From an uncultured Eubacteriales bacterium (lineage in GTDB: Bacteria; Bacillota; Clostridia; Peptostreptococcales; Anaerovoracaceae), in NCBI GenBank assembly GCA_902797195.1, contig CADBRY010000015.1, positions 1 through 17,737 of the forward strand: a stretch of 17,737 nt of DNA, read 5' to 3'. Both the position numbers and the translations under genes were made by a program. The notes beneath the pieces are model-generated. The model saw only the letters and a program-made list of their open reading frames with translations, was not told the DNA's origin and ran no database searches. Of the stretch, positions 2,184-17,737 are shown one piece after another. Positions within the stretch are counted from its first letter, which is position 1, and the number at the start of each line of letters is the position of its first letter.

Positions 2184-2643
2184 TTCTGTATCCTCCCTCA
2201 TACATATAATAGTCATAACCCTCGTTGTTCGATTCTTTAAGGATTGATTCCATCTTTGCATCAAGCGCTTCATCAAGCGATACATAGATCCTGTCCTCGG
2301 TTGAATACCGATCAGCATCAAGCAATTCGTTAAGCTCCTCACCCATAAGTCTCAGCCTCGAATCCGTCAGCTCAACGATTGCCCACTTGCAATCAAAATC
2401 TCTTGCGCAGACCATAAATGTTGCCAAACTGAAGAGGATGTCATTTCTTGTATATATCGGAGAGCAAATGGTTATATCAACATGGCATCTCCTTATCTCA
2501 GGCTCTTCTTCCAACCACGATTGTACTGAGCCTAACCCCCCTCGTATCTGTACAACCGGTATCTCATTATCAAGCACAACTGTGCATCGTAATTCACGAA
2601 ATCCCATCAGATCCGTTCTTACATCTATTACAATGGTTCTCAT
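2167..2643 (-). CDS. Hypothetical protein, 158 aa, coupled to repA-like gene
   Basis: No family is recognised. The start is ATG at 2643 (MRTIVIDVRTDL), with GGAGG nine bases upstream; the longer frame to 2757 would overlap the gene before it and lacks a site. The first half alternates strands and charged turns (RTIVIDV, CTVVLDN, CHVDITIC). The second half is acidic and probably helical, ending in a tyrosine-rich tail (YDYYMYEGGYRNADYY). There is no signal peptide or membrane segment. It sits 35 bp after the coiled-coil membrane gene and overlaps the repA-like start by 17 bp, which places it firmly in the mobilisation/replication operon. An accessory role in replication or relaxosome control is possible but unsupported. 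Confidence 0.7.
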   Translation of the reverse strand: MRTIVIDVRTDLMGFRELRCTVVLDNEIPVVQIRGGLGSVQSWLEEEPEIRRCHVDITICSPIYTRNDILFSLATFMVCARDFDCKWAIVELTDSRLRLMGEELNELLDADRYSTEDRIYVSLDEALDAKMESILKESNNEGYDYYMYEGGYRNADYY

Positions 2644-2678: not shown

Positions 2679-3002
2679 TTAAATATGAAGCAGTTTCCAA
2701 ATAGTTAGTATGAAAACCGCCAGTATTACTGCTAGTATGAATGCTGTCATACGCCATTTTTCAATCGTCTGCATTTGACTGGAAGTCTTTGCCATCAGAT
2801 GCCGGTTAGCGTCTTGGAGGTCTTCGATATGTTTTTGCTGAATTGTTGCAAGATTTTTCAGCACACGGTTTTTTTCCCGAATCCTTCCAATCAATCTTTC
2901 CTGCTCTTTCAACAGCCGCGATTGCTCCAATGTTTGATTCTGCAACTCTTCTGCCAGTGTGAGAATCTCTTCTTCCCTGTAGAAGTCGTCTTGCCCGCTC
3001 AT
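2679..3002 (-). CDS. Coiled-coil protein with C-terminal membrane anchor, 107 aa
   Basis: Residues 8-80 form a long charged helix with coiled-coil character (runs of E, Q, L, K, R, such as EEILTLAEELQNQTLEQ). Residues 85-104 (MTAFILAVILAVFILTIWKL) are one hydrophobic span, so this looks like a tail-anchored membrane protein facing the cytoplasm. The ATG at 3002 lies inside the relaxase gene in another frame; the two frames share 197 bp. Its ribosome binding site is weak (GGGGG seven bases upstream), which suggests translation coupled to the relaxase. A plausible role is to hold the relaxosome at the membrane or near the coupling protein, inferred only from position and topology. The clean heptad pattern and membrane span argue that this frame is real despite the overlap. 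Confidence 0.7.
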   Translation of the reverse strand: MSGQDDFYREEEILTLAEELQNQTLEQSRLLKEQERLIGRIREKNRVLKNLATIQQKHIEDLQDANRHLMAKTSSQMQTIEKWRMTAFILAVILAVFILTIWKLLHI

Positions 3003-3891
3003 CCAATTGCCCCCGTTTGTGTATTAATCTTCCCAGCTCAGCCGCCTCGGTTTTTCCAATTTCAACCGCCTGGTTATAAGACCGGATCTGTCGGTTCTCT
3101 TCGCATCGCTCCGAAACACCGCCATTGCTTTCCAACTTACGAGCTGCTGTTCCTTCGTGTTGTGTCGGGATTTTCTCACTTCCCTGACGTATATAGCTAC
3201 GGTGATCGACCCGGACCTTGAGGCCTTTTTTCTGCAACGCTTCGTTAACTGCTTCTGCCCATGCGCTGCGCCATGTCTCAGCAAGTTCCCGATCGTTCCA
3301 GTCATTTGCTTTCACCAACACCCGTTTCCATTGTTTCCTGTTTCCCTTCCCGACTTTTTGTCGTCCGGTTTCTGAATCAATGATGGGAATACGGTTACCA
3401 CATGGATCAAGTTCGTATTCTTTACGTTCTTTAACGTCCCATGTGCCATCCTCACGGATTCCGCGAAGCGTCAGCAGAATGTGTACATGCGGATTTGAAG
3501 GCTTACCGTCCGGACAATGAATACTGAAGTCCGCACACATGCCTTTTTCCACAAAAGTGCTCTTGATATATGACCGTACCAGCCCGATTTGTTCTTCTGG
3601 TTCCAATTCGACGGGCAGCGCAATCTCTATATTACGGGCAAGCTGCGCATTCGATGCATGTTCTGACTGTTGGACTGCCGCCCATAACGTTTTCCTGTAC
3701 TTATATGCAGGAGGAGCATGCTCGCAGAGCATTACTTCTTTATATATAAGGTCTTTTCGTCTGCTGTAATCATGTGTACGCCCGGTCTCCGGATCTCGCA
3801 GTCTTGATCGAGACTGGTACGCTGCGGCAGCGATAGCGGAATGACCCTCGCTTCGCTTTACCAGCTTAATTGAATAATGAAATATCGCCAT
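2806..3891 (-). CDS. mobA: MobA/MobL-family (MOBQ) relaxase, 361 aa
   Basis: This is the relaxase that nicks oriT and leads the single strand into a recipient. It opens with MAIFHYSIKLVKRSEGHSA, followed by AAAAYQSRSRL with the likely catalytic tyrosine at residue 25. Later come H125 and the HUH metal motif NPHVHILLTLR (H135, H137). The region around residues 228-247 (VDHRSYIRQG, PTQHEG) is also typical of MobA/MobL. The ATG at 3889-3891 has an AAGGAAG site seven bases upstream. The protein is short for the family, and its last 65 residues overlap a coiled-coil gene in another frame, so the C-terminus may be little constrained. It reads away from the probable oriT at 3936-3991, the usual arrangement for these genes. 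Confidence 0.93.
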   Translation of the reverse strand: MAIFHYSIKLVKRSEGHSAIAAAAYQSRSRLRDPETGRTHDYSRRKDLIYKEVMLCEHAPPAYKYRKTLWAAVQQSEHASNAQLARNIEIALPVELEPEEQIGLVRSYIKSTFVEKGMCADFSIHCPDGKPSNPHVHILLTLRGIREDGTWDVKERKEYELDPCGNRIPIIDSETGRQKVGKGNRKQWKRVLVKANDWNDRELAETWRSAWAEAVNEALQKKGLKVRVDHRSYIRQGSEKIPTQHEGTAARKLESNGGVSERCEENRQIRSYNQAVEIGKTEAAELGRLIHKRGQLDERARRLLQGRRDSHTGRRVAESNIGAIAAVERAGKIDWKDSGKKPCAEKSCNNSAKTYRRPPRR

Positions 3892-4497: not shown

Positions 4498-4787
4498 TCA
4501 AGACAATAGATGATTTTTTGTCAAAAATGTCGCTGGAATGTGAAATGCAGGATGCGATGAACGCGGTATCAAAAATGATGTCACGGTATCAGAAAGAAAA
4601 TCTATTTGACTGTGTCAAAGAATCGCCGACTTCAGCAGTATCAAAAATTTACTACCTCTTTCGGGAGTACGATAAAAATGCCGATTATTACCACGATTCG
4701 GAAATTGACACCCTGCACTATCTGGAGAAAATCTTTAAACTCGTAGCAAAGGGATATGAGGAGCTGGAGGAGATGATCAATGAGTAA
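4494..4787 (+). CDS. Hypothetical helical protein of transfer operon, 97 aa
   Basis: No family is recognised. The sequence looks wholly alpha-helical and mildly acidic, with no membrane segment or signal peptide. The ATG overlaps the previous stop (ATGA), and its own end overlaps the coupling-protein start by 8 bp, so the three genes are translationally coupled. Sitting between a relaxosome accessory gene and the coupling protein, it is a candidate relaxosome or coupling-protein adaptor. That role rests on position alone. Confidence 0.7.
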   Translation: MIKTIDDFLSKMSLECEMQDAMNAVSKMMSRYQKENLFDCVKESPTSAVSKIYYLFREYDKNADYYHDSEIDTLHYLEKIFKLVAKGYEELEEMINE

Positions 4788-6267
4788 CTGGCTGAATCCT
4801 TACGACATGCCACCGGGGCTACTATTGCTTCTTATTCCCCTGGGATTGTTTATCTGGGGGGAGTATTTGCATGTCAAAAGCCTGAGTACATACCAGACAT
4901 CCAGGCAAAAGCTTGCAGCTCAGACTCCGTCAATACCGAAACAGTGGAAGAGCCTGTTGCCGACATCCAGCATAATCATTGGGAAAACGGACAACCGCCA
5001 CTATTTTGCAGTCCCCGAGAAAGATAACCTGCTGAATGTCCTCCTGCTGGGCGGTTCCGGATCCGGAAAAACATCCGGGCCGCTCGCCTGCACCATTCTC
5101 CAAAATGCAAAGGACCGTATCGAACATCCAGAAGACACTATCACATACATGTGCGTTGATCTCAAGGGAGAGATCCACCGTCTTATTCCGGATTCTCTCT
5201 ACGTAAAGATCGACCCCACCGACCGGTATCACAGCGTTGGATGGAATCCGTACTGGCGGCTCACCTCTGTAGACAAACCATCCGATGACCTGAAGATCGA
5301 AGTATTCAGCGGCATTTCAAAAAGCCTGATCCCGGTGTCAGACAAAAACCGATACTTCAGCGATAATGCGACCATCATGCTTTCAGGCTTTCTTGCCTTT
5401 GGTTTCGAGCATAAGGAAACAATGGTTGATACTATCCTGAAGCTGCTCACAAGTGATGTTCCAACATTGCTTGCTGAGACCTGCAAAAGTCTGGATCCAG
5501 ACAGTGTAGCCGGTTTCTTCCTAAAGAAATTTTCCGGAAAGAGCAGCGAAGGATTCGAAGATGTCTGCAGCACAATGACCACCAGTCTCTCCTGCTTTTC
5601 TCTACAGGAGGTCCAGTACGTCCTCAGAGATAACCCCTTGATGATAGGTCCGGACAAGGTGAGGGAAACGAACGTCTTTTTGGCTGTTCCTGACAACCTT
5701 ATGACGGAAAGCCAGTTTGCCCCTATCTTCCGCATGATACTGGAGCAGCAGATGACTTACCTCACGATGCAGCTTCCTGTAGGAAATGCACATCCTGTAG
5801 GAATCCTGATCGACGAGTTCTACGCCATCGGTGCGCTGTCCATCATCAAGCATCAGCTTTCCATCTGCCGTGGATACGGTGTCTTCATCTTCCTGTGTAC
5901 ACAGAGCATCGCAGGAATAGAGGAACACTATGGCAAGGAAGGCGCCCGCATCATCATGGAAAACTGCCGCGTGAAGATAATCCTAGAGCTGACAGACAGC
6001 AACTCAGCCGCAGCTGCAGTGGACTGGTGCGGCACCTATCAGGAACGGATGGTATCAAGAAATAACAGACATAATTCCGGTCTTACCGTCACCTGGCAGC
6101 AAAAAAACGTCTTTGACAAGTCCGACTTTACAAATCTTGTCGCCCGGCAGCGAATTATCGTCATTACGCCGACTGGAATGAATCAAATACAAAAACTCCA
6201 ATGGTTCAAAACACCATATTTCAAGGAGATACATGACAACTACTGCGGTCCGCCGCAGAACCAATAA
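4780..6267 (+). CDS. VirD4/TraG-like type IV coupling protein, 495 aa
   Basis: This is the membrane ATPase that links the relaxosome to a secretion channel and pumps DNA. A single hydrophobic segment (about residues 11-27, PPGLLLLLIPLGLFIWG) anchors it. The Walker A motif is GGSGSGKT (91-98), and Walker B is VGILIDEFYAIGAL (340-353). FLCTQSI and the DKSDFTNLVARQRIIV stretch near the C-terminus also fit the VirD4/TraG family. At 495 residues it is on the short side, with one membrane span where many relatives have two, so the N-terminal periplasmic loop seems to be missing. It is coupled to the preceding gene by an 8-bp overlap. No VirB4, VirB6 or other channel gene is visible, so the channel is encoded left of the window or borrowed from another element. 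Confidence 0.92.
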   Translation: MSNWLNPYDMPPGLLLLLIPLGLFIWGEYLHVKSLSTYQTSRQKLAAQTPSIPKQWKSLLPTSSIIIGKTDNRHYFAVPEKDNLLNVLLLGGSGSGKTSGPLACTILQNAKDRIEHPEDTITYMCVDLKGEIHRLIPDSLYVKIDPTDRYHSVGWNPYWRLTSVDKPSDDLKIEVFSGISKSLIPVSDKNRYFSDNATIMLSGFLAFGFEHKETMVDTILKLLTSDVPTLLAETCKSLDPDSVAGFFLKKFSGKSSEGFEDVCSTMTTSLSCFSLQEVQYVLRDNPLMIGPDKVRETNVFLAVPDNLMTESQFAPIFRMILEQQMTYLTMQLPVGNAHPVGILIDEFYAIGALSIIKHQLSICRGYGVFIFLCTQSIAGIEEHYGKEGARIIMENCRVKIILELTDSNSAAAAVDWCGTYQERMVSRNNRHNSGLTVTWQQKNVFDKSDFTNLVARQRIIVITPTGMNQIQKLQWFKTPYFKEIHDNYCGPPQNQ

Positions 6268-6963: not shown

Positions 6964-7151
6964 GAACGATAAAAAATCTTGACGCGACCGACTTCATTAT
7001 CAATTTATATGAACAGCTTGCGCGTTGGAGAAGTGCCCGAAATGCACGAAATGTAGGAAATGAAGAATTCCGCGAAGCTGTTCGTACGCTTCCGGAGGGA
7101 ACTGTTCTCCGGATAGATATCCCTAGAGGTGATATCCATGCCTACGACTGA
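6960..7151 (+). CDS. Small hypothetical protein, 63 aa
   Basis: No family is recognised. It is a small basic helical protein ending in a short strand-like segment (GTVLRIDIPRG). The ATG overlaps the stop of the DUF5688-like gene by four bases, and its 3' end overlaps the RadC-ArdC gene by 14 bp, so it fits the operon tightly. Residues 27-35 (NARNVGNEE region) are encoded by three GAAATG repeats spaced exactly 9 bp apart. The same motif recurs in the intergenic region after the next gene, so this reading frame may also serve as host for a DNA-level signal. Confidence 0.55.
   Translation: MRTIKNLDATDFIINLYEQLARWRSARNARNVGNEEFREAVRTLPEGTVLRIDIPRGDIHAYD
7039..7062. repeat. Three GAAATG repeats at 9-bp spacing, inside a gene
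   Basis: GAAATG occurs at 7039, 7048 and 7057, each exactly 9 bp from the next. In reverse complement this is the CATTTC unit that recurs at 8652-8871, so copies in opposite orientation flank the RadC-ArdC gene. Confidence 0.6.
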
Positions 7152-8637
7152 AACAAAAAGCACTTCAGCATACCAACTTCCAGAAGTCCGAATCCGACTG
7201 GCAGAAGGTCCGGACACGCTTTACAGCCACGAACAGCTTTCGACACCGAAAGATGCAGCTCATATCATAGGAGAGACCCTGCTGAAAGACATGGATCGGG
7301 AGATTCTTGTTGCGGTCAGCCTAGATACCAAGCTTCGTCCGATCAATTATTCCATCGTATCAGTTGGAACTCTTTCCGAGAGCGCGGCACATCCAAGGGA
7401 GATCTTGAAATCTGCCGTTCTGTCCAATGCCTCCGGTCTTTTGCTTCTGCATAACCACCCAAGCAGTGATATAACACCGTCTGCTCCGGACCTGCAGCTG
7501 ACATCAAGGATGCGTGAGGCCGGAGAATTAATGGGCATCCCCTTGATAGATCACATCATTGTAGGTGGAGGGAACGGCACATACTACTCGATGTCAGAGC
7601 ACGACCAGTTACAATCACAAGGCAGTAGTCTCATTGTCGGCGAAAAAGGCAGCACGTACCAGGTCAGCCGAAAAGAGAAAGTCGCTGCCCTGACAGACCG
7701 ACTGAAATCCGGTGTGACAAACTACCTGAACGGCGAGAAATACATGGAATTACTGCGAATGATGGGACGTTTTCACCGGTATTCGGTCAATAACACACTC
7801 CTCATTGCGATGCAGCGGCCGGATGCAAGTTCCGTCGCATCCTATACCACCTGGAAAGCTCTGCACCGGCAGGTAAATGCTGGTGAGAAGGGAATCCAGA
7901 TCCTGTGCCCGACTCCCTTTAAGAAAACGATCGAGAATGAGCGACTCGACCCTACATCGGGACTCCCAGTGAAAGATGCTGCCGGGAATCCGGTCAAAGA
8001 CACAGTGGAACATACCTATACCGGCTTTCGTGTCGGTTATGTCTTCGACATCTCCCAGACCTCCCAAATTCCGGGAACAGAAGAAATCCAGCTGGAACCG
8101 GTCAGAGAGTTACTCGGCAGTGTGCCGAACTACGATGACATGATCCGCGCTGTATCTGAGATTGGCAGTGTACCAGTAAGGTTCCAGCATATAGCATCTG
8201 CCGCCAAGGGTTATTTCTCCCTATCTGACCAGGAAATCGTCATTCGTCCGGAGATGAGTGAGCTTCAGACGCTGAAAACGCTGATCCATGAGGAAGCACA
8301 TGCCCGCCTGCATAATACCAAAGATATCAAAGGAAAGAACAGTACTTCGGACCTGTTTTCCAGGGAAGACAAGGAAATGCAGGCTGAATCTATCGCATTT
8401 GTCGTGGCAAGTTCGTATGGCCTCGATACCAGTGAGTACAGCTTCCCCTATGTGGGAACATGGGCTGGAGCTCTAGAAAAACTGGTCCCAAACCTTGAAA
8501 TCATCAGGGAAACCGCCTGTGAGATGATAGGAGAGATCGATATGACCCTGTCTCAGATACAGACTGACCATATCGCAGAACAGGCATTCCTGGCAGAACA
8601 GGAGACAGCCACTTCCTCCAGGCATATCTCCATGTAA
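7138..8637 (+). CDS. RadC/JAB domain fused to ArdC-type antirestriction protein, 499 aa
   Basis: Two units are fused. Residues about 30-160 form a RadC-type JAB domain with the metal motif HNHPSSDITPSAPD (H105, H107, D118). Residues about 180-300 resemble the ArdC N-terminal single-strand DNA-binding region (RYSVNNTLLIAMQRPDASSV, then TTWKALHRQVNAGEKGIQIL). Residues about 340-440 form an ImmA/IrrE-like zinc protease with HEEAH (384-388) and a downstream glutamate in AESIAFVVASSYG. ArdC proteins shield incoming single-stranded DNA from restriction and are carried by conjugative elements. ATG 7138 has AGAGGTG six bases upstream and is preferred to the in-frame GTG at 7129. It is the last gene of the rightward transfer operon, before the terminator at 8783-8840. 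Whether the JAB part cleaves anything is unknown. Confidence 0.85.
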   Translation: MPTTETKSTSAYQLPEVRIRLAEGPDTLYSHEQLSTPKDAAHIIGETLLKDMDREILVAVSLDTKLRPINYSIVSVGTLSESAAHPREILKSAVLSNASGLLLLHNHPSSDITPSAPDLQLTSRMREAGELMGIPLIDHIIVGGGNGTYYSMSEHDQLQSQGSSLIVGEKGSTYQVSRKEKVAALTDRLKSGVTNYLNGEKYMELLRMMGRFHRYSVNNTLLIAMQRPDASSVASYTTWKALHRQVNAGEKGIQILCPTPFKKTIENERLDPTSGLPVKDAAGNPVKDTVEHTYTGFRVGYVFDISQTSQIPGTEEIQLEPVRELLGSVPNYDDMIRAVSEIGSVPVRFQHIASAAKGYFSLSDQEIVIRPEMSELQTLKTLIHEEAHARLHNTKDIKGKNSTSDLFSREDKEMQAESIAFVVASSYGLDTSEYSFPYVGTWAGALEKLVPNLEIIRETACEMIGEIDMTLSQIQTDHIAEQAFLAEQETATSSRHISM

Positions 8638-8955: not shown

Positions 8956-9879
8956 TTACGAAATAGCTATGACTTTTACATCTGCACCATTCACATCAAG
9001 GATAGCGCCCAGTCTCTGTTGCATTAGATTTCTCGGCTGCTTCTTCAGCGGATTATTTAGCAGCAACAGTTTATTGTTTGATACATTATATCTTGCTGTT
9101 GTGCCCGTCACCTGATCACGCACCAAGATGCTTTTACCATTCTCTATCTTAGGAAGACTCAGTATCTCCTCAATAAACCTTTTGCTTGCAGCCAGAGATT
9201 TCTCTCTACTGATAGTATCGAGCAATGATACACCTCCGAGCTGATTCACAAGGACGAAGAACCTTCTCCGGTCAGTCTCATTCAGTACATTGTCATATTC
9301 CTTAAGTGCCTGAAGATTTCCCAGAATCAGGTTTTTAGCCCTCCCAAGGGAACGCTCCGTTGTACCAACCTGCACATCCTGTCTTTTCAGAAGAAAATTC
9401 ATATACTCGTATGGATCACTGTTATCTTCATCATAGGACAAAAACGGAATCCAAAATAACCTTGCAACGCCATTTCTCACATAACCAGCTCTGTCGTTCA
9501 GATAACGGTTATGAATCTTTGAAATACCGTCCTTTCTGTCTTCTGCAGAAACTGTCCAACGGGCTTTCATATAGTTCCAGCACATAAGATGTGTCATATA
9601 AGCCCATAACCGCCAGTCCGTAGCTTGCAGGCGGTTGATTTTTCCCCGGAATGCGTTATAAAGGATTTTGGCATTCTCAGCATCTGTTGAGGCATCTCCA
9701 GGATTCAGCTCAAAATCATCAACTTCTATCCCTGAATCAAAGAAATAATTTGGGGCATCTTTTTTCAGGAAAAAGTCATCAAGCCATGGTTCACTTTCCG
9801 TGGCATAGCGGTCAAAAAGACTTTCCGCTTCACCTCGAAGAATATCAAGGGCATTCTGTCTAAAAAAATTCAACTTCAT
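8956..9879 (-). CDS. DUF6339-like protein, last gene of the GHKL ATPase cassette, 307 aa
   Basis: This soluble, mainly helical protein has a conserved-looking core, ATDWRLWAYMTHLMCWNYMK, at residues 111-130, followed by RW at 132-133. From memory this resembles DUF6339, a family of unknown function; the name is tentative. The C-terminal 60 residues change to a strand-rich, basic segment (KSILVRDQVTGTTARYNVSNN, PLKKQPRNLMQQRLGAI) that could contact DNA. No nuclease motif is evident. The ATG at 9879 has GAGG seven bases upstream and lies 12 bp after the previous stop, so it belongs to the same operon as the GHKL ATPase. It ends just before a strong terminator. Its role is probably as a structural or effector partner of the ATPase, inferred from the operon alone. 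Confidence 0.7.
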   Translation of the reverse strand: MKLNFFRQNALDILRGEAESLFDRYATESEPWLDDFFLKKDAPNYFFDSGIEVDDFELNPGDASTDAENAKILYNAFRGKINRLQATDWRLWAYMTHLMCWNYMKARWTVSAEDRKDGISKIHNRYLNDRAGYVRNGVARLFWIPFLSYDEDNSDPYEYMNFLLKRQDVQVGTTERSLGRAKNLILGNLQALKEYDNVLNETDRRRFFVLVNQLGGVSLLDTISREKSLAASKRFIEEILSLPKIENGKSILVRDQVTGTTARYNVSNNKLLLLNNPLKKQPRNLMQQRLGAILDVNGADVKVIAIS

Positions 9880-9891
9880 ACCAGTACCTCG

Positions 9892-10743
9892 TCACATCCC
9901 CATATCATATATAACCTGCAGTGCGCTGGAGTAATTATCTCCCAACATTTCCTGCGCCGTACTGATTGGATTATTAAGCAACTCCTGTACTTTTGCCTGA
10001 TCACCACCTGCCATCTTTTCTATATAAGCCCTGAGTGATTTATACCAGGAATTTTCAGAAAAATCGTTATCATCGTCCAGAGTCATATTGGAGATAGCAT
10101 ATGTAAGCGCCGGAATAGATAACACTGCATTCAACAAAAGGATTTGATTGGCTGTATTGGTGCCGGCAGCCATATATAATCCGTATTCCTTTGATGGGAG
10201 ATATACGTAGATATTGTCTATCTGGCTGAGATCCACTTCCATTCTTGTGATGTCATCCCTATCCTTTACGGTAATGACAGAGTTCGGTTTCCTCACCTCA
10301 TCAGCTTTGTAGTATGCGGTAAACCATATCGACTGTCCGATACCAACGATATCGTTTTTCTTAACTCCTACAGTGACGCCCTTAAAGCCATCCACAAAAT
10401 CATCGTTGTAATATGGATATAGATCTTCCATCGCTATGATACAGGGAGAAAGATCAACTCTCTCGTGTACATCAGACGCTTCAATAAAAAACGGCTCATT
10501 TTCCTTAACGTAATGGATAGTTCTAAGCCAGGTAGAAGTACACTGAATCTGGATAGCATAGCTAAACAATCCATCAGCAATAATCTTTTTGATGCCGTCG
10601 TTATTTACGGAAAACCTAGGAATAATTCTGAATCCGGAAGGCTCTCTCAACACCTCAATGCTGCTGCTGAAGGATGTCGTTTTAAACTGTTCCGTTTCCT
10701 CCTGAAGCAGAGGATAGGGATAATTGATTTTATTGTTCAGCAT
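9892..10743 (-). CDS. Unrecognised protein of the GHKL ATPase cassette, 283 aa
   Basis: No family can be named with confidence. The first 200 residues are rich in predicted strands (FSYAIQIQCTSTWLRTIHYV, SIWFTAYYKADEVRKPNSVI), with a YPYPLL motif near the N-terminus. The last 80 residues look helical (SWYKSLRAYIEKMAGGDQAK). There is no membrane segment, signal peptide or obvious catalytic motif. The ATG at 10743 overlaps the end of the ATPase gene by 14 bp, so translation is coupled and an equal-ratio complex is likely. The beta-rich front with a helical tail suggests an adaptor or sensor rather than an enzyme. That reading is inference. Confidence 0.7.
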   Translation of the reverse strand: MLNNKINYPYPLLQEETEQFKTTSFSSSIEVLREPSGFRIIPRFSVNNDGIKKIIADGLFSYAIQIQCTSTWLRTIHYVKENEPFFIEASDVHERVDLSPCIIAMEDLYPYYNDDFVDGFKGVTVGVKKNDIVGIGQSIWFTAYYKADEVRKPNSVITVKDRDDITRMEVDLSQIDNIYVYLPSKEYGLYMAAGTNTANQILLLNAVLSIPALTYAISNMTLDDDNDFSENSWYKSLRAYIEKMAGGDQAKVQELLNNPISTAQEMLGDNYSSALQVIYDMGM

Positions 10744-12664
10744 ACGCCTTCACCTCCAGTCCGCATCTTCTGTTCTGATCCAACTGAAGTAAGATAGTTA
10801 CCCGCTCACCTTTTCGAATATCTCCCACCAAAACCTTCCCACCGTAACTTCTGGCTTCTCTGCCGTTAATAAATGCCTTGCTGATCTCGGCGGCGCCATT
10901 ATTCTGATCATCACTGTTTACATTGATCTGAAGAGAAAGGTTCTTGAGATTCTTATCAGAAGAGAAAGAAACTACATACTGTCCTGTTTTGTCATCAAAC
11001 GGTGTAACTACACCCTTAATCTCCACCTCTGACACAGTCCCGGTCTTCTTCCCTCTTCGATTATTCGGCTTTGGATTTCCACCTCCTCCTGGCTTCTTTT
11101 CCTGCTTTTCATCTTTCTTCTTCTTTTTCTTGGTACCACTGTTAGACTTCACAGTAGAGACCACCGGTTTGCTCTTGGAGGAACCACCCGCCTTAGTCTC
11201 CATAGATAATGGTTCATAATTGAGGAACGCGTTTTCCTCTTCCTTATTGTCGCCTACGGAGAAGTTATTCTGCAAATAATCACTCAACCCAAAAGCATCG
11301 TGCGAAGGTACATCCAAGTTTGGCATCTCGCCCCTTATTTTGCCAAGAATCCACTTATGGATATTTCCGATGACAGCATCAGCCTCTTTTTTGTTGCCCT
11401 TATATATTGCTGATGACCACTCGTTATGAGCCTGTCCCTCGCATTTTCTCAGGAAGGAATCGATGTTATGCTCAGGCGTCGAGTCAACAGCATTATTACC
11501 GGTTGCAATAAAGATTCCGTTGAAGCGCGCACCTATCTTCCAGCCTCTGTCTTCACAGATACCCATTCCAGAACGACGCATCTCATAGATCGCCTTATCT
11601 TCAATAGACGGATCTACCAGAAGATATAACCCCACCTCTCCGCGTTTGATAGTGGAAGGCGTTTCGATAAAATGCTTCATTTTCGGATTTTGAAGAATGG
11701 AGAAAAACCTTGGTGCTGTAAAATCAAACTCCTTGCTTTCAATGTGGTCTTTATGCCACTGCTCAAAAAAAACCATCTGTTCGTTAAGGTTATCCTTTCG
11801 AAACTCTAAAGTTCGATCCACAGCTTTTATTCTAACAATGAGCCTGCCATCATAGATAACGTAAAAACAGTATTGCAGAATACTCAAGGCAATCTGCTCC
11901 ATCCAGTCATCATCTGATTCGAATCCAACTGCAATGACGTCTGTTCCGTATTCGTCCCTGCGAAAAACCTCTGGAACCTCATTCATATCAAAAATTGCAG
12001 GGCATCCCGTCTCAACGGAATTGCCGAACACACCCACATTACGCCAAGTGCCGCCATTTTCTTCAAAGGAAGTTAAAATAGTTTTCCCTTGAAATGCTGT
12101 TTCGTTCTCCGTATTCTTCGTTGCATACAGAACCGTTCTTAAAGCAGAGAAGCTATAGGGAGCAAACTTGCCAACGCCGTGAGAACCGCCTTGCCCATTG
12201 CTCTTATTGGTAGCGCCCGTCTGTCTCACCAGAGTAGACCACCCCGTTCCACGGAACTTGGTCACACCTGACAGACCTGTCGTATTATAGTCGCTGATTT
12301 TAAGGACAGGGATCGTTTCCTGTTGAATAAGGAGGTTAGACTTTCTCTTCCATTCAGCCACTGTTTGTCCGTCATCAGTATCCTCTGGGAAAGCCTCCGA
12401 GCATCGTTGAATGACTTCATTCAGACGGGAAAGCCCCGGAATCTCTCCCGCAGGCACATCAAAAAGGGCAAACTCCACAATCACCGGCTCTGAATCAGGC
12501 AGTGCAGGATTCTTTGCATCAAGGGAATTCTGGAGAATCTCCTTTGCAAGCCCTCTGTATGGATGCCCTTCAAAGATACCTGTATTTGCATCGTTCGGGC
12601 CCACAAAATCAGAGATGGCGCCTTTTTCGAACATCCACTTATAATCATCATTCCATTCGAACAT
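10730..12664 (-). CDS. MutL/MORC-like GHKL ATPase, 644 aa
   Basis: The GHKL (Hsp90/MutL-type) ATP-binding fold is clear: the N-box EILQNSLDA at 42-50, the DxG-like ISDYNTTGLSG at 124-134 (D125), and the glycine-rich lid GGSHGVGKFAPYS at 159-171. The middle portion resembles the S5-like transducer domain. Residues about 496-545 are a very basic linker (runs of K, R, G and P), and a strand-rich C-terminal domain follows. GHKL ATPases of this kind are known from comparative genomics as partners in restriction-modification and defence operons, where they are thought to act as ATP-driven DNA clamps. ATG 12664 is preferred because GGAG lies seven bases upstream; the ATG at 12670 is too close to that site. 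It follows a small helical gene by 11 bp and overlaps the next gene. The target and trigger are unknown. Confidence 0.85.
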   Translation of the reverse strand: MFEWNDDYKWMFEKGAISDFVGPNDANTGIFEGHPYRGLAKEILQNSLDAKNPALPDSEPVIVEFALFDVPAGEIPGLSRLNEVIQRCSEAFPEDTDDGQTVAEWKRKSNLLIQQETIPVLKISDYNTTGLSGVTKFRGTGWSTLVRQTGATNKSNGQGGSHGVGKFAPYSFSALRTVLYATKNTENETAFQGKTILTSFEENGGTWRNVGVFGNSVETGCPAIFDMNEVPEVFRRDEYGTDVIAVGFESDDDWMEQIALSILQYCFYVIYDGRLIVRIKAVDRTLEFRKDNLNEQMVFFEQWHKDHIESKEFDFTAPRFFSILQNPKMKHFIETPSTIKRGEVGLYLLVDPSIEDKAIYEMRRSGMGICEDRGWKIGARFNGIFIATGNNAVDSTPEHNIDSFLRKCEGQAHNEWSSAIYKGNKKEADAVIGNIHKWILGKIRGEMPNLDVPSHDAFGLSDYLQNNFSVGDNKEEENAFLNYEPLSMETKAGGSSKSKPVVSTVKSNSGTKKKKKKDEKQEKKPGGGGNPKPNNRRGKKTGTVSEVEIKGVVTPFDDKTGQYVVSFSSDKNLKNLSLQINVNSDDQNNGAAEISKAFINGREARSYGGKVLVGDIRKGERVTILLQLDQNRRCGLEVKAYAEQ

Positions 12665-12675
12665 CCGCATACTCC

Positions 12676-12927
12676 TTACTGATTGAGAGAAAATCTCTTA
12701 GGCCCTTTGGAATCAGATTTGTTGAATCTTCCCTTTGCTTCCGCCACTGCCTCTTCAATCGCCTTGAATATCTGATCGATGTCTTTTTTAGAATATTCGT
12801 AAGCATTTGCGTTTGAAAGGTTTCCAAGAAGCTGTACTGTATCAATAATTTTATTCGTTCTCGCTTCCGCGATTCTCACAAACTTTTCTCTTTTCGATTC
12901 ACCGGCATTTTTAATTTCATCTTTCAT
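12676..12927 (-). CDS. Small charged helical protein, first gene of the GHKL cassette, 83 aa
   Basis: No family is recognised. It is a short, strongly charged, helical protein (MKDEIKNAGESKREKFVRIA) with a central YEYSKKDIDQIFKAIEEAVA segment and a basic tail. I chose ATG 12927 because GGAG stands six bases upstream; the TTG at 12939 would also be in frame. Its stop overlaps the ribosome binding site of the ATPase gene, so expression is linked. It could be a small regulator or a partner of the ATPase; nothing in the sequence decides between these. Confidence 0.65.
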   Translation of the reverse strand: MKDEIKNAGESKREKFVRIAEARTNKIIDTVQLLGNLSNANAYEYSKKDIDQIFKAIEEAVAEAKGRFNKSDSKGPKRFSLNQ

Positions 12928-12972
12928 ATTATTCTCCAAATATTTGTAAATTTGTGTTTGCTATACATCACA

Positions 12973-13001
12973 ATGGTATCACATATTTAACAAATACACA
13001 A
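12973..13001 (-). promoter_or_regulatory. Possible promoter of the GHKL cassette
   Basis: On the minus strand TTGTGT (13001-12996) and TACCAT (12978-12973) are 17 bp apart, and the -10 is preceded by TGA, an extended -10 element. It lies between the vsr terminator and the cassette, which implies the cassette is transcribed separately from the restriction operon. Confidence 0.4.
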
Positions 13002-13029
13002 GCGTCGTGATAAATATTCTTTTATGAAA

Positions 13030-13060
13030 TAAAAAAGCGCGCGTCAAAATAGCGCGCGCT
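13030..13060 (-). terminator. Rho-independent terminator after vsr
   Basis: AGCGCGCG (13036-13043) and CGCGCGCT (13053-13060) form an 8-bp GC stem with a nine-base loop, followed on the minus strand by a run of six T. It starts eight bases beyond the vsr stop codon and closes the restriction-modification operon. Confidence 0.85.
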
Positions 13061-13067
13061 AAGTGAT

Positions 13068-13517
13068 TCATATTTCAAAATAGATATCATCAGATTCTGC
13101 AAATGTTTTTATTATATTAACAATATTTTCCAAATATTCTTCGTTCTTTGAGGCTTCTTTGATGGTACATTCCCATATTACAAGGCATTTAACGCCTTCT
13201 TTTTGAAGCTCTTCTCTTACTGCAGCATCTCTTCGGATATTTGCAGCGAACTTCTTCTGCCAGAATTCCACATTTGACTTTGGAATATAAGCATATTTGC
13301 ATCCCTGATGCCTGTGCCAAAAACACCCATTCACAAATAATGCTGTGCGATACTTTGGAAGATAGATGTCAGGTTTACCAAATACTCTCTTATCTGCAAT
13401 ACGGTACCGTAATCCCCGCTTAAAAAGTTCTTTTCGAAGAAACATCTCCGGTCTCGTATCCCTGGACCGAATCGCTGCCATATTCCGGCTTCTGTCCTCT
13501 TTGGATTTAATATCCAT
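13068..13517 (-). CDS. vsr: Very short patch repair endonuclease Vsr, 149 aa
   Basis: Vsr nicks DNA beside the T of T:G mismatches that arise when 5-methylcytosine deaminates, starting repair back to C:G. The family signature is intact: MAAIRSRDTRPE (13-24), FGKPDIYLP with the catalytic aspartate at residue 50, and NGCFWHRHQGC (63-73), which carries the aromatic pair F66-W67 that wedges into DNA and the zinc-binding cysteines and histidine. Its length matches known Vsr proteins. The start overlaps the stop of the EcoRII-like nuclease gene by one base (TAATG). Linkage to a C5 methyltransferase is the usual context, since that enzyme creates the mutable base. It is followed directly by a terminator. 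Confidence 0.95.
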   Translation of the reverse strand: MDIKSKEDRSRNMAAIRSRDTRPEMFLRKELFKRGLRYRIADKRVFGKPDIYLPKYRTALFVNGCFWHRHQGCKYAYIPKSNVEFWQKKFAANIRRDAAVREELQKEGVKCLVIWECTIKEASKNEEYLENIVNIIKTFAESDDIYFEI

Positions 13518-14689
13518 TACAGAGCTTCCATCTCCTTCACATAGCTCACAAAGTTGCCGATAGTCCAGATTCTTTCCTGCTTATCTGGCGGATAAGCCTT
13601 GATATATGCCTTAGGAACAACAAGAATAACTTTCTCTGCAAGCATTTCATCCATTTGCGTAGAGGAGATTCCCTGCTGCATCGTACAGAGGTATTTATAT
13701 CCATCTCGAAGTCTATCCGCTTCGTTCAGTACCTGCCTCCACCGATCCTTACATGTGGTCTTTGCTGCCAGTATGCACAGTTTGCTAATTTCAAATGATG
13801 AATTATGATAGTCCTCCACAGAGGGAAAAATAAAGTCCGGGCGTTTATTTCCTTCAGTGACTCCCTGCGCTGTGTACCGAATGTTATTCCCATCAAAAAT
13901 TGCAGCCAGATGATGCTCTAGGCTCTTGCCGGCGCGGCTCTTACGTCGATTCAACACCTTATTCGCCGTCGTTATAAAGTCATCTACTGAACTGAATCCT
14001 CTGGATACTGTATTGCCGTATCGCGAACGCTCAATTGCTCGAAACAAACGATATTCTTCCTCTGTCCAATCAAGAAGGAGTTTATCGGGATTTGATCTCA
14101 TCAACGATTTGTTCAGATAAACTTGATAAGAGATTATCCTTGCCGCTCTTGACATTTCCTCTGATGAAGGAAACTCCACATTTAAACCACTGATAAACGC
14201 ATCTATTGCTGCTTTTTCTTTCACCTCAGGATTAACCAGGTCCAGTTCAATCGGTCGATTGGTTTCTGCCGGCGTCAGGCCAAAAGCATCAAGAAAATTT
14301 TGTATGTCATACTCTGTATTCAGAAGATATGCATCATAGTAGTCGTTTGCTTGCTTCGCAAACACAAACAGTGCACCTGTATACTCTGGCCGCAGTAAAG
14401 AAAAGCCTCTGCCAAATCTTGTGAGGCGAAGTTCTCCTTTGCTCTCATACCAGGTAAAAACACTGTCCGTTTCTATATCATTTTGCCATTTCACCTTAAC
14501 TGCTTTTTTTAAGATATGATTATCTTTCAGTTCTTGATCCGTAAAAAACAGGTTCTTGGCTGTTTTGGACAGAAGAATCCCTACCTGATGTCCGCCTGTT
14601 TCTCCACTATCATTTGCAGAAAGAAATTTACAGAAAGCCTCCTTCGCCATTAATACAGCATCAATTGCTAACTGGGACAAATCATTCAT
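13517..14689 (-). CDS. EcoRII-family type II restriction endonuclease, 390 aa
   Basis: The C-terminal half reads like the EcoRII catalytic domain: [15 protein letters not shown] (248-261), [14 protein letters not shown] (282-295) and [19 protein letters not shown] (308-326), which hold the PD-(D/E)XK-type active site. The N-terminal 170 residues match the position of the EcoRII effector domain, which needs a second copy of the site to activate the enzyme. The length is close to the 404 residues of EcoRII. Its likely target is unmethylated CCWGG, assumed from the family and from the Dcm and Vsr neighbours, not read from the sequence. The ATG overlaps the methyltransferase stop by four bases (ATGA), so the nuclease is made only after the methyltransferase message. 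Confidence 0.9.
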
Positions 14690-15798
14690 TTTTCTTCCTC
14701 AAGTCTTTGGATTTCCGACAACACCAGCTCTGCTACGTTCTGAATCAATGGTACAACCACAGAATTACCAAACTGCCGATAAGCCTGGGTGTCTGATACC
14801 TCTATCTTAAAGCTGTCGGGAAAGCCCTGTAATCGGGCACATTCTCTTGGTGTAAGTCTTCTGGGATTCTTTCCATCCTGCAGAATTAGAATCTCAGAAC
14901 CATCTTTATAATATCGAGCACTTAATGTCCTTGAAATACCATCCTCCGGCGCCAGCCCATACCCAAAACCATTTCCGGCAGCACGATGCTTTGCCGCATA
15001 GTTCTGCAGATACTCCCATAACTTATCTGAAAGCGTATACTTATTATCAACATGTGTTTCAAGTATGTCACGCATAACAGGCTTTGGATCCACGGGCGTC
15101 AAATCAAAAGCAAACTTATAATCCTTTCCATATCGTTCCCTGTCAAAGCCAACTATTATGATTCTTTCTCTGTGTTGAGGAACATAATTCTGTCCATCCA
15201 GCACCTGATAAAACACCTCATAATTCAGTTCATCCAAGCACTCCGTGATAACCTTGAATGTCCTCCCTCCATCATGGCTTTTCAGATTCTTAACGTTCTC
15301 AAGAAGAAATGCTTTCGGTCGCTTTGCCCGTATAATCCGGCATACATCAAAGAAAAGTGTACCCTGTGTCTTATCTTCAAATCCGGTGGCCCTGCCTAGG
15401 CTCTGCTTCTTGGACACTCCGGCAATAGAAAATGGCTGGCATGGGAACCCGGCAACCAGAATATCGTGATTTGGTATACTCCTTGCGTCAACCTTAGTAA
15501 TATCTCCATCCGGTTGCTCTCCAAAGTTAGCAAAATATGTCTGCTGGCAATACTTATTCCACTCATTGGAATAGACGCAATGCCCACCTATGTTTTCAAA
15601 AGCCAATCTAGTTCCGCCGATGCCAGCAAATAGATCTATGAAGGTGAAATCAGCTTCCTTTTGTTGATCAGCCTTTTTTCGTTGTGCCATCTGCATGATT
15701 GCAGACGATATTGCATCCTGTATAGAGGAATCGGCAGACATTTCAGCAAGTGCCTCGTATACAGAGTCTTCGAGTCGTAAATGTAACTGTTTAGCCAT
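14686..15798 (-). CDS. dcm: DNA cytosine-5 methyltransferase with N-terminal RHH-like segment, 370 aa
   Basis: This enzyme moves a methyl group from S-adenosylmethionine to cytosine C5 and protects the host from the partner nuclease. The conserved motifs are in order: DLFAGIGG (55-62), GFPCQPFS (117-124) with catalytic Cys120, ENV (167-169), QHRERI (208-213), [13 protein letters not shown] (315-327) and GNSV (344-347). The target recognition region lies around residues 220-310. Residues 2-40 ([18 protein letters not shown] and on) look like a ribbon-helix-helix DNA-binding fold placed before the catalytic domain, unlike many stand-alone Dcm proteins. M.EcoRII-type enzymes are known to repress their own operons, so this segment may do the same. 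The ATG at 15798 has AAAGGAT upstream. It is the first gene of a coupled operon with the nuclease and vsr. Confidence 0.93.
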
Positions 15799-16106: not shown

Positions 16107-17405
16107 ATGAAGCAACGTAACAATTTTTCAGAGGAACTGCGCAATCTGCTTGTCACTCAAAAAGAGTCTGATGTATTATCAGTATGTGGTGCGGATAACG
16201 TCGAAGTGTTATCCAATATGTTAGAACGAGCAAAAAGGAAACAATTTGTATTAGGCTGTCATGACCGTGCAATCACCCAGATAGCATCTGGCAAAAAAGC
16301 AGGGAAGTGGAAAACCTACGTTGGAAACCCGAGAAAGGAGGTTCTTCGTTCATCGGAATCTGAACTGATTGACTATCTGTATAGCTACTACATGACCGAA
16401 CAGCATAAAACCCTGACGTATAGGGAAGTCTTTGACGATTTCATGGAGTACAAAGTAAGTCAGCTGAATCGAAGCAAGACGTCGATCGTCAAATACAGAA
16501 ACGTCTATAATCGCTTTGTGACAACAGAAATCGCAAATACAAGAATTGCTGATATTACCGACGATATGCTTCTTGATTGGATACGCGGTATTGTAACGAC
16601 TATCCATCCAAAACCCGAGGCCTTTCGGAAACTGGTCCAGCAGGTAAAGAGTACGTTTGAATATGCTGTGCGGAAAAAGTACTGTACAGACAATCCCGCA
16701 TACTATATAGATATCCACCTTTATCTTAAGGATTGCGAGAATGTTCAGAAGCTTGACGAGGAAAAAGAGTTTTCAAAAGCAGAGATCGCTTTACTTTGGG
16801 ACGATGGAATTAAAAATGCTTCAAATCCCCGCTCATTGATGAGCATGCTTGCTTCCTGTACCGGGATGCGAGCCGGGGAACTCCCTGTTCTTCACTGGTC
16901 TGATATAGGGGAGAAGTTCATTCATATACATCGCCAGCAGCTGAGGACCACTGAAAACGGTAAAGATGTGTTTTATGAAGTTGGTTATACAAAGGATGAG
17001 CGTATACATCCCCATGGCGGACGTTACTTTCCAATTACCGATGATATTCGTTTCGTTCTTGAACTTGCCAAAAAGCTGCCGGGTGCGGAATCTGAATATG
17101 TTTTTCATGACAAAAACGGCAAAGCGCCCACGAAAGACAGCTACGCATATCGTCTTCGCCGCAGATGTAATAAGCTCAATATAACCACAACCAATAATCA
17201 CTCTTTCCGTATGGCTGTGAATACCCGCCTCATAGAGCTAGGAGTAGATTCGGCAAAGAGAGCCTTAATTCTGGGGCATTCGGTTGAAACAAATGAACGC
17301 CATTATTCTCTTACAGACCGCAGAATGCTTGATGACCTGGAAAAAATCTTTTCCGGAGATAATGCTCCTTCTCCTGAAGAGAAAGACAATCATTCTGTAG
17401 CATAA
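16107..17405 (+). CDS. int: Tyrosine recombinase integrase, 432 aa
   Basis: This integrase catalyses site-specific insertion and excision of the element. The catalytic set is complete: R255 in TGMRAGEL, H365 and R368 in NNHSFRMAVN, H391 in LGHSVETNERHYS, and the nucleophile Y400. Residues about 95-210 form a core-binding SAM-like domain (TYREVFDDFMEYKVSQLNRS). The first 90 residues, basic and helical, probably bind arm sites. I chose ATG 16107 (MKQRNNFSEEL) because the protein reads normally from there; no good ribosome binding site precedes it, and the frame is open to an ATG at 15909, so the start is uncertain. It points toward the tRNA-Arg locus 38 bp downstream, the typical position next to attP. 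It is divergent from the restriction operon; the 308-bp gap holds the promoters for both. Confidence 0.92.
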   Translation: MKQRNNFSEELRNLLVTQKESDVLSVCGADNVEVLSNMLERAKRKQFVLGCHDRAITQIASGKKAGKWKTYVGNPRKEVLRSSESELIDYLYSYYMTEQHKTLTYREVFDDFMEYKVSQLNRSKTSIVKYRNVYNRFVTTEIANTRIADITDDMLLDWIRGIVTTIHPKPEAFRKLVQQVKSTFEYAVRKKYCTDNPAYYIDIHLYLKDCENVQKLDEEKEFSKAEIALLWDDGIKNASNPRSLMSMLASCTGMRAGELPVLHWSDIGEKFIHIHRQQLRTTENGKDVFYEVGYTKDERIHPHGGRYFPITDDIRFVLELAKKLPGAESEYVFHDKNGKAPTKDSYAYRLRRRCNKLNITTTNNHSFRMAVNTRLIELGVDSAKRALILGHSVETNERHYSLTDRRMLDDLEKIFSGDNAPSPEEKDNHSVA

Positions 17406-17438
17406 AAAAACAGCCGGAAGTATTTAAAACTTCCGGCT
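17404..17438 (-). terminator. Terminator after tRNA-Arg, convergent with int
   Basis: AGCCGGAAGT (17412-17421) and ACTTCCGGCT (17429-17438) form a perfect 10-bp stem with a seven-base loop. On the minus strand a run of seven T follows, so it ends the tRNA transcript. In the plus direction there is no T run, so it stops int transcripts poorly. Confidence 0.75.
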
Positions 17439-17442
17439 TCCC

Positions 17443-17516
17443 CGTTCCCGCCGGGATTCGAACCCGGGGCCTCACGCTTAGGAGGCGTGCGCTCTATCCT
17501 GCTGAGCTACGGAAAC
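17443..17516 (-). tRNA. tRNA-Arg (anticodon CCU), complete and probably element-borne
   Basis: Read on the minus strand the cloverleaf is complete: acceptor GTTTCCG/CGGGAAC with one G-T pair, D-arm GCTC/GAGC, anticodon stem CACGC/GCGTG with loop CTCCTAA (anticodon CCU, reading AGG), and T-arm CCGGG-TTCGAAT-CCCGG. The discriminator base is G, and CCA is not encoded. It differs at many positions from the broken tRNA-Arg at 17646-17685, so it is a separate gene and not a repaired copy. It lies between the integrase and the element's right end. A weak promoter-like TTGAGT/TTTAAA pair stands upstream in the minus direction near 17565-17595. Confidence 0.93.
17477..17487. repeat. Attachment-core-like 11-bp repeat, copy within the intact tRNA
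   Basis: CTTAGGAGGCG is identical to 17646-17656. It covers the anticodon loop and the 5' anticodon stem. As the only stretch shared around the breakpoint, it is the likely crossover core, though shared tRNA function could also explain the identity. Confidence 0.5.
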
Positions 17517-17572
17517 AATATTATATATATCAAGGCTGCTTTGCCGCCACGATATCCTCGTAATTTAAAAGA

Positions 17573-17588
17573 TGTCACCCACTGTCAC
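17573..17588. repeat. Two TGTCAC direct repeats, possible integrase arm sites
   Basis: TGTCAC occurs at 17573-17578 and 17583-17588, one helical turn apart, between the intact tRNA and the broken one. Short repeats beside an attachment core are often arm-type integrase sites or excisionase sites; this is inferred from position only. The rest of 17517-17645 is AT-rich with no gene. Confidence 0.3.
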
Positions 17589-17645
17589 TCAATCGCCGTT
17601 ATCAAAAATGGCTTAAAATAAGACGTTTCCGCTTCTTATCGTTCC

Positions 17646-17685
17646 CTTAGGAGGCGAGTGCTCTATCCAGCTGAGCTACGAAGAC
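17646..17685 (-). pseudogene. 5' half of a tRNA-Arg(CCU) gene, cut in the anticodon loop; element right end
   Basis: On the minus strand the sequence runs GTCTTCG, D-arm GCTC/GAGC, 5' anticodon stem CTCGC, and loop CTCCTAA with anticodon CCU. After CTAAG it turns into unrelated DNA, so the 3' anticodon stem, T-arm and acceptor are missing. The break coincides with the 11-bp CTTAGGAGGCG shared with the intact tRNA, which marks the probable attR. Sequence from about 17657 to 17737 would then be host chromosome. The missing 3' half should lie at the element's other end, left of this window. Confidence 0.75.
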
Positions 17686-17737
17686 ATATTCAATTTTTGG
17701 CTTATTTACAGGCTTTTCAGCCCTCCGGAGCCACCCG

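Follow-up and report, generated by a model that had tools for sequence, protein, structure and literature searches.

What becomes of a host tRNA gene when a mobile element enters its anticodon loop and the sequence beyond the break does not rebuild it? The question is raised by the right end of a 17,737-nucleotide stretch of DNA, here termed the window, which makes up an entire contig (C15) in a 78%-complete assembly (G000; 1.55 Mb in 300 contigs) from an uncultured Eubacteriales bacterium. There, a complete tRNA-Arg(CCU) gene adjoins a tyrosine integrase gene and, beyond 129 bp of intervening sequence, lies the 5' half of a second, different tRNA-Arg(CCU), as ARAGORN, Rfam and a match of 35 of 40 letters between the two bear out. 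In the original prediction this arrangement was read as an insertion that breaks the host tRNA gene, with the element bringing a tRNA of the same anticodon; the anatomy is confirmed here and the mechanism is supported as far as sequence tells. It is very probable that the window's element, through the action of its integrase at the tRNA-Arg(CCU) anticodon loop, splits the host gene and supplies a replacement tRNA. The contig ends only 52 bp past the orphan 5' half and the left end of the element is absent from the window assembly; because that end is unassembled, the decisive evidence is provided by relatives.

Gene content of the element

Judged by its gene content, the window is best described as the right end of a putative integrative mobilizable element, not of a temperate phage. 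The contig combines an integrase, a MobQ relaxase and a coupling protein, and the left part of the element lies beyond it. The tyrosine integrase is encoded on the plus strand at 16107–17405 (open frame from 15909; PF00589, 1.1e-11; PF22022, 3.7e-7; phrog_1 integrase, 6.4e-35), the MobQ-type (MobA/MobL) relaxase on the minus strand at 2806–3891 (NF041496, above its cut-off), and a VirD4/TraG-like coupling protein on the plus strand at 4780–6267 (a profile match, with NCBIfam matches below their cut-offs). Profile and PHROGs matches further identify an AAA_25 ATPase (981–2342, minus strand), perhaps a replicative, RepA-like protein, and a fusion of RadC-like and ArdC-like antirestriction domains (7129–8637, plus strand). 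A compact defence cargo occupies 8956–15798 on the minus strand, in which a three-gene candidate defence set, PDC-M33 C/B/A (8956–12670; defence-system search), adjoins genes for a Vsr nuclease, an EcoRII-type restriction enzyme and a C5 DNA methylase (13068–15798; profile and defence-system searches).

Ten window proteins were compared with PHROGs; the matches comprised integrase, replication-like ATPase, DNA repair, antirestriction and unknown families, and none belonged to structural, packaging or lysis families. An assignment of the integrase to phages or plasmids was considered and rejected, as just five phage and two plasmid records match it, all at <27% identity; among 50,697 phage records, none gave a match covering 80% of the integrase. 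A scan of viral contigs, with the reach of close relatives, returned three pattern stretches, none of which codes for a relative of the integrase.

A complete tRNA gene and an orphan 5' half

The complete, putatively element-borne tRNA-Arg(CCU) lies on the minus strand at 17443–17516, with CCA not encoded. It scores 67.5 bits against Rfam, is the only complete tRNA-Arg(CCU) that ARAGORN calls there, and folds as a cloverleaf with an energy only modestly under that of shuffled sequences (z -1.79; 10 of 200 shuffles fold as well or better). Read along the minus strand from the right end of the contig, the order is a 52-bp flank, the orphan half, the 129-bp spacer, the complete tRNA, a terminator-like hairpin and the convergent integrase gene.

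The orphan (17646–17685, minus strand) is 40 nt long, stops at the break, and is identical to the first 40 letters of the complete tRNA at 35 positions. The break had been placed within a core common to both tRNAs, and so it proved: the core CGCCTCCTAAG, the putative recombination site, lies at 17646–17656 on the minus strand at the right junction, and its two exact occurrences in the whole assembly are both in the window's two tRNAs. The tRNA pattern of the broken copy is lost directly after CTCCTAAG, with 3 of 5 stem pairs remaining. The claim that the sequence past the break cannot rebuild the tRNA also stands, since ARAGORN finds no tRNA in the orphan and the adjoining part of the spacer, and the orphan region reaches 17.2 bits in Rfam, under the cut-off of 29.

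Relatives with the same layout

One integrase scan of genome contigs returned four loci at 43–47% identity (L040, L041, L042 and L043), which represent three distinct elements, L041 and L042 holding the same tRNA region. L040 and L043 are in Lachnospiraceae MAGs, L041 and L042 in Oscillospiraceae and Clostridia MAGs. All four present the same order, namely chromosome, orphan 5' half, a spacer with arm-like repeats, a complete but different tRNA-Arg(CCU), and integrase, with a distance of 127–183 bp, core to core, between the orphan and the complete tRNA. Because the same arrangement is found in 4/4 integrase-related loci, the layout is not a product of chance. Genes beyond the orphan look chromosomal in L040, L041 and L043 (translations, by eye), ftsH in L041 being one example, and because chromosomal genes occupy that place, the 52 bp upstream of the broken tRNA in the window, from 17686 to 17737 at the contig end, are by analogy taken as DNA outside the element. 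Orphan halves extend through CTCCTAAG in 10/10 loci compared, a few extra stem letters being present in genomes G073, G074 and G075. When G073 and G074 were queried with the flank plus 5' half, two matches were obtained in each, the orphan and the element tRNA (10 of 22 candidates scored in each). Cargo varies among the elements: the G074 element carries a relaxase and a coupling protein, the L041 element a REP_ORF2-G2P-type replication protein, and the G073 element a resolvase-like gene (by eye).

The window's spacer (17517–17645, minus strand), the presumptive right attachment arm of the element, aligns to the G073 and G075 spacers better than the best of 100 shuffles, and to the G074 spacer not above the best of 100 shuffles; among the spacers of the window, G073, G074 and G075, the alignment score of five of the six pairs is more than 4 points above that of the best of 100 shuffles. 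Within it is the direct repeat TGAGTGA-N3-TGGGTGA (17575–17591, minus strand), putatively a pair of arm-type integrase sites. L040, L041 and L043 carry an exact TGAGTGA-N3-TGAGTGA, from which the window's version departs by one mismatch, and in the window the motif is not significant alone (1 found against 0.20 expected; present in 33 of 200 shuffles). Repeats on either side of the core are expected for a lambda-like integrase. GAGTGA-type repeats do flank the core on both sides in G073, where they would serve the integrase as arm-type sites, and the window shows the right side only.

Directly 3' of the complete tRNA, before the end of the convergent integrase gene, is an intrinsic terminator-like hairpin (17412–17438, minus strand; 1 found, 0.3 expected). 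No strong promoter for this tRNA was detected in the window, which offers a weak match only (1 found, 0.6 expected). The G073 and G074 spacers hold TTTACA-17-TATAAT upstream of the tRNA, plausibly its promoter. Because the window's spacer shows only a weak promoter match, an alternative is that transcription of its tRNA starts at the promoter of the host tRNA and passes through the orphan half.

Both ends of the element in one relative

The L040 locus lies on contig 1 (486 kb) of G073, where the element is 9.2 kb long and spans 37.9–47.1 kb. At the left junction, at 47.1 kb, GTGAGTGATCACTCAA is followed by CTCCTAAGCGAAAG and then by a tRNA 3' half, and the 14 letters CTCCTAAGCGAAAG are common to the right and left junctions. 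This 3' half pairs with the anticodon stem of the orphan at 5/5 positions and with that of the element tRNA at 3/5 (by eye). Rather than being the host's native half, it is part of a second integrated element, whose integrase, split into two frames, is found just beyond the left junction. The native host 3' half lies at 76.9 kb, 39 kb from the orphan, and together with the orphan it makes up a complete tRNA-Arg(CCU) identical at 75/75 letters to the intact genes that three related genomes carry (G086, G082 and G092). In the stretches fetched from these three, no orphan half adjoins the intact gene and no integrase of a 19-member panel is present. ARAGORN detects no tRNA in the G073 orphan plus its spacer, and in G073, the sole relative in which both ends are seen, element sequence does not restore a tRNA at either junction. 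The same 75 letters can be assembled in G074 from two contigs; there the 3' half is on a separate contig and the sequence next to it differs, so that a link to the element is unproven.

The matching 3' half sought on the strength of the original prediction was therefore found in the relative G073, and not in the window's assembly, where the left end is unassembled. Its counterpart, an intact gene without an insertion, is represented by the 75/75-letter genes of G086, G082 and G092 for the G073 target; for the window, it is represented by the family-mate G316 only, which has an intact tRNA-Arg(CCU) beginning GTCTTCG.

In the L161 stretch of G092 (600–2910), two loose tRNA 3' halves lie after the intact host tRNA and appear to be the remains of several insertions. 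One of these halves is joined to the left-end motif of the present element family, from which it follows that G092 also had insertions.

Sister integrases beside intact tRNA genes

An alignment search through 397 genomes of the family to which G073 belongs (E <= 1e-40) gave 12 hits, comprising G073, G718 and ten more distant integrases at 29–37% identity. The G718 contig starts exactly at the core and continues into a tRNA 3' half. Eight of the ten distant integrases adjoin an intact tRNA, which is tRNA-Leu in seven cases and tRNA-Gly in one, and no orphan half was found beside any of the eight readable distant loci (best upstream alignment 16–24, against 70 in G073). The remaining two are L244, in which no tRNA is seen, and L245, which is truncated. 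A branch with 92% support sets apart the five tRNA-Arg(CCU) integrases, G718's included; the integrase of L151, a locus described below, is far away in the tree, among the rest. The intact tRNA beside the distant integrases is presumably a rebuilt one. Because relatives at 29–37% identity sit beside unbroken tRNA-Leu or tRNA-Gly, one subgroup appears to have switched, and the replacing strategy appears to have arisen within an integrase family that otherwise leaves an intact adjoining tRNA.

Stacks of orphan halves

A query composed of host flank plus 5' half was used to search G073 and 60 relatives (the kinship of the genomes not being given), and matches were obtained in 48 of the 61, with a readable tRNA-Arg(CCU) locus in 40 of these 48. 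A single complete tRNA-Arg(CCU) gene is present in 27 of the 40. In eight, a complete tRNA-Arg(CCU) is preceded upstream by at least one orphan 5' half; G073 and G074 were already known as such, and the others are G085, G091, G097, G103, G105 and G131. Two more have an orphan half near the contig end (G076, G087), and in three the sequence breaks off at the core or shortly beyond it (G083, G088, G126). In a further eight genomes (G081, G084, G094, G100, G106, G120, G124 and G134), the gene is absent from the stretches examined. ARAGORN confirms the complete tRNAs at L218, L219, L222 and L224. All the orphan halves reach through CTCCTAAG and are without a T arm; most lose the stem immediately, those of G073, G074 and G075, and perhaps also the outermost of G103, keeping a few more of its letters. 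The spacers sort into about four groups.

Three orphan halves are present in G091 and two in G103. Stacks of up to three suggest repeated takeovers, since each newcomer would split its predecessor's tRNA and leave the 5' half of that tRNA behind, and a series of such events would be expected to build up a stack. The integrase of G091 belongs to a distant family, and the replacing strategy therefore probably arose more than once. In G103 and G085, the element may have been lost or overlaid and its tRNA retained.

Two of the loci have features of their own. At L151 (2398–2880), three successive tRNA-Arg(CCU) orphan 5' halves are followed by a complete one, and the locus lies beside an integrase from another family. 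At L154 (6124–6440), the complete gene is preceded by two orphan halves whose tRNA-Arg(CCU) types differ greatly, with 22 of 40 letters alike, and two rRNA-methylase-like genes lie further downstream (by eye).

Two simpler accounts of the stacks were rejected. Not all of them were made by the window's integrase family: the L151 integrase is distant and five other stacks are without an integrase of the panel. The 19 panel integrases (tblastn) are missing from L150, L152, L153, L154 and L155, several of which are short stretches, and no panel integrase lies near the G085, G097, G103, G105 and G131 stacks. Nor do outer orphan halves decay with age, as the odd half at L154:6291 shares its D-arm with complete tRNAs in G107 and G061, and the outermost half resembles an Escherichia coli-type tRNA-Arg. 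Separately, one end of each of four contigs (L159, L197, L223 and L237) coincides, exactly or nearly so (to a few bases), with the CTCCTAAG core, which suggests that assemblies break at the repeated core or where occupied and empty sites are mixed.

Proposed mechanism and alternative explanations

In the mechanism that we favor, the tyrosine integrase would recombine a short attP core, consisting of CTCCTAAG and a few further bases, with the host tRNA-Arg(CCU) at its anticodon loop. The host 5' half would remain outside the right end and the 3' half would move to the far left end, and the element's complete tRNA-Arg(CCU) with its terminator, located between the right arm and the integrase, would take the place of the lost host gene. 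The anatomy is shown by the window and by three further elements; a single relative displays both ends, and three related genomes have the intact target. By analogy, the window's element would behave likewise at its unseen left end.

A canonical insertion, in which the integrase-side end rebuilt the host tRNA to give the complete gene and an unrelated, earlier element left the orphan as its scar, is unlikely. This explanation draws on the distant integrases, which adjoin intact tRNA-Leu or tRNA-Gly in exactly the same orientation and without an orphan in 8/8 readable loci, and on the fact that scars at tRNA-Arg(CCU) are common in G073-related genomes, with five stacks lacking an integrase of the 19-member panel. 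However, a scar left by an unrelated element sits poorly with spacers that are alike, from orphan to tRNA, within the same integrase group (5/6 pairs), and the left junction in G073 has the same 14 letters as the orphan junction and pairs with the anticodon stem of the orphan rather than with the stem of the complete tRNA. We consider it very improbable that the arrangement is a pseudogene or an ancient tandem duplication of tRNA-Arg with no connection to the element: two similar tRNA sequences with 35 of 40 letters in common do stand next to each other, yet the matching 3' half in G073 contradicts such an origin for the family, every orphan compared runs through the same core without a T arm, the spacers differ between groups, and one stack mixes tRNAs of different origin.

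The least credible of the explanations considered is that the element restores the 5' part of its target, so that the complete gene would consist of an element 5' half and the host 3' half, the orphan being the displaced host 5' half. The complete gene should then be at the opposite end; instead it is flanked by the orphan, at a distance of 129 bp, and on the opposite side by the integrase, and although the orphan is indeed a 5' half, the far end in G073 carries a 3' half.

Under the favored mechanism of splitting and replacement, the element's tRNA would be expressed and charged, and its supply would make integration tolerable and tie the host to the element. As tRNA-Arg(UCU) is probably able to read AGG by wobble, this dependence may be partial where a tRNA-Arg(UCU) exists; among the matches listed, tRNA-Arg(UCU) is present in several members of the window's genus.

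The host of the window

A third tRNA-Arg(CCU), which the original prediction had named as a point to check, was looked for in G000 by pattern, Rfam and core searches and none was found, nor was a loose tRNA-Arg(CCU) 3' half; both absences are weak because the assembly is 78% complete and in 300 contigs, and the contig stops 52 bp beyond the orphan. By pattern search, a CCU tRNA or half is present in 3 of 49 genomes of the window's genus (G000, G061 and G064) and was not seen in the other 46. A broken tRNA-Arg(CCU) would thus be unusual for the genus and the host of the contig is uncertain. Because the CCU tRNA or half is absent in 46/49 genus genomes, the contig may be misbinned, or the CCU gene may be dispensable in this genus. 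Two further fragments were noted: a loose tRNA-Arg(CCU) 3' half in the genus-mate G064 (L256, 1501), and, in the genome of the window itself, the 3' fragment of a tRNA that seems to be of another isotype (L033, 1501–1521, G000:C258), perhaps the end of a different integrated element.

Relation to known systems

The closest parallel is tRNA-dependent lysogeny, described for temperate phages of Actinobacteria, in which the need for the tRNA was proven experimentally (Guerrero-Bustamante and Hatfull 2024, PMC10865867). In the available portions of that report, the targets are tRNA-Lys, tRNA-Ile2 and tRNA-Leu, a Lactobacillus prophage is mentioned as a possible further case, and the phage integrases are likewise expected to use repeats on both sides of the core. 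The principle given there is the same, with a tyrosine integrase, an att core in a host tRNA and a tRNA carried by the element itself; a short att core in the host tRNA and a right junction that is not rebuilt are true of the window and its relatives, and the 14-bp repeat is present at both ends in G073. In contrast to the phage cases of that account, the present system concerns a putative mobilizable, non-phage element, a tRNA-Arg(CCU) target and Clostridia-type MAGs, is known from sequence alone, and adds stacked scars that suggest repeated takeovers on the tRNA-Arg(CCU) side.

Sinorhizobium meliloti prophages provide another case, in which, according to the accessible text, a host tRNA gene is substituted by a foreign one and the authors draw the comparison with tRNA-dependent lysogeny (PMC11476347). 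Those are phage-related sequences in Alphaproteobacteria, whereas the window carries a putative mobilizable element in a Clostridia-type MAG. The phiLM21-like prophages, as far as the excerpted account goes, do not substitute, their tRNA genes being rebuilt, and the earlier Sinorhizobium case is only cited there (PMC12429752). Islander tRNA islands likewise have a tyrosine integrase adjoining a tRNA gene; as characterized in the portion of the source at hand, they restore the disrupted gene with their own sequence (PMC4383910), unlike the window's right junction. Among the matches listed, from a literature mostly without subscription journals, there was no report of tRNA-replacing integrative conjugative or mobilizable elements. 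Integration with tRNA replacement is known from some phages; here it appears in a putative mobilizable element that is not a phage.

Implications

The evidence is evenly poised on a broader reading, in which the tRNA-Arg(CCU) of Lachnospiraceae and neighbouring Clostridia would be a serially captured, often mobile-origin, AGG-specific tRNA acting as an addiction module, one integrase group having switched from rebuilding to replacing. As part of the same reading, unrelated elements of at least two integrase families and about four spacer families would each have broken the tRNA of the previous occupant and put their own in its place. If this is true, the cell's only AGG-specific tRNA would often derive from mobile DNA, also where the element itself has since disappeared, and the orphan halves would form a readable record of past takeovers. 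Comparison of sister integrases with and without an orphan half can address how the rebuilding and replacing strategies relate, a question left open in the available text of PMC10865867. A strategy reported for phages in the papers found would extend to mobilizable elements by which restriction and candidate defence genes are spread among gut and rumen bacteria, which suggests that a decoding gene could be owned by a mobile element.
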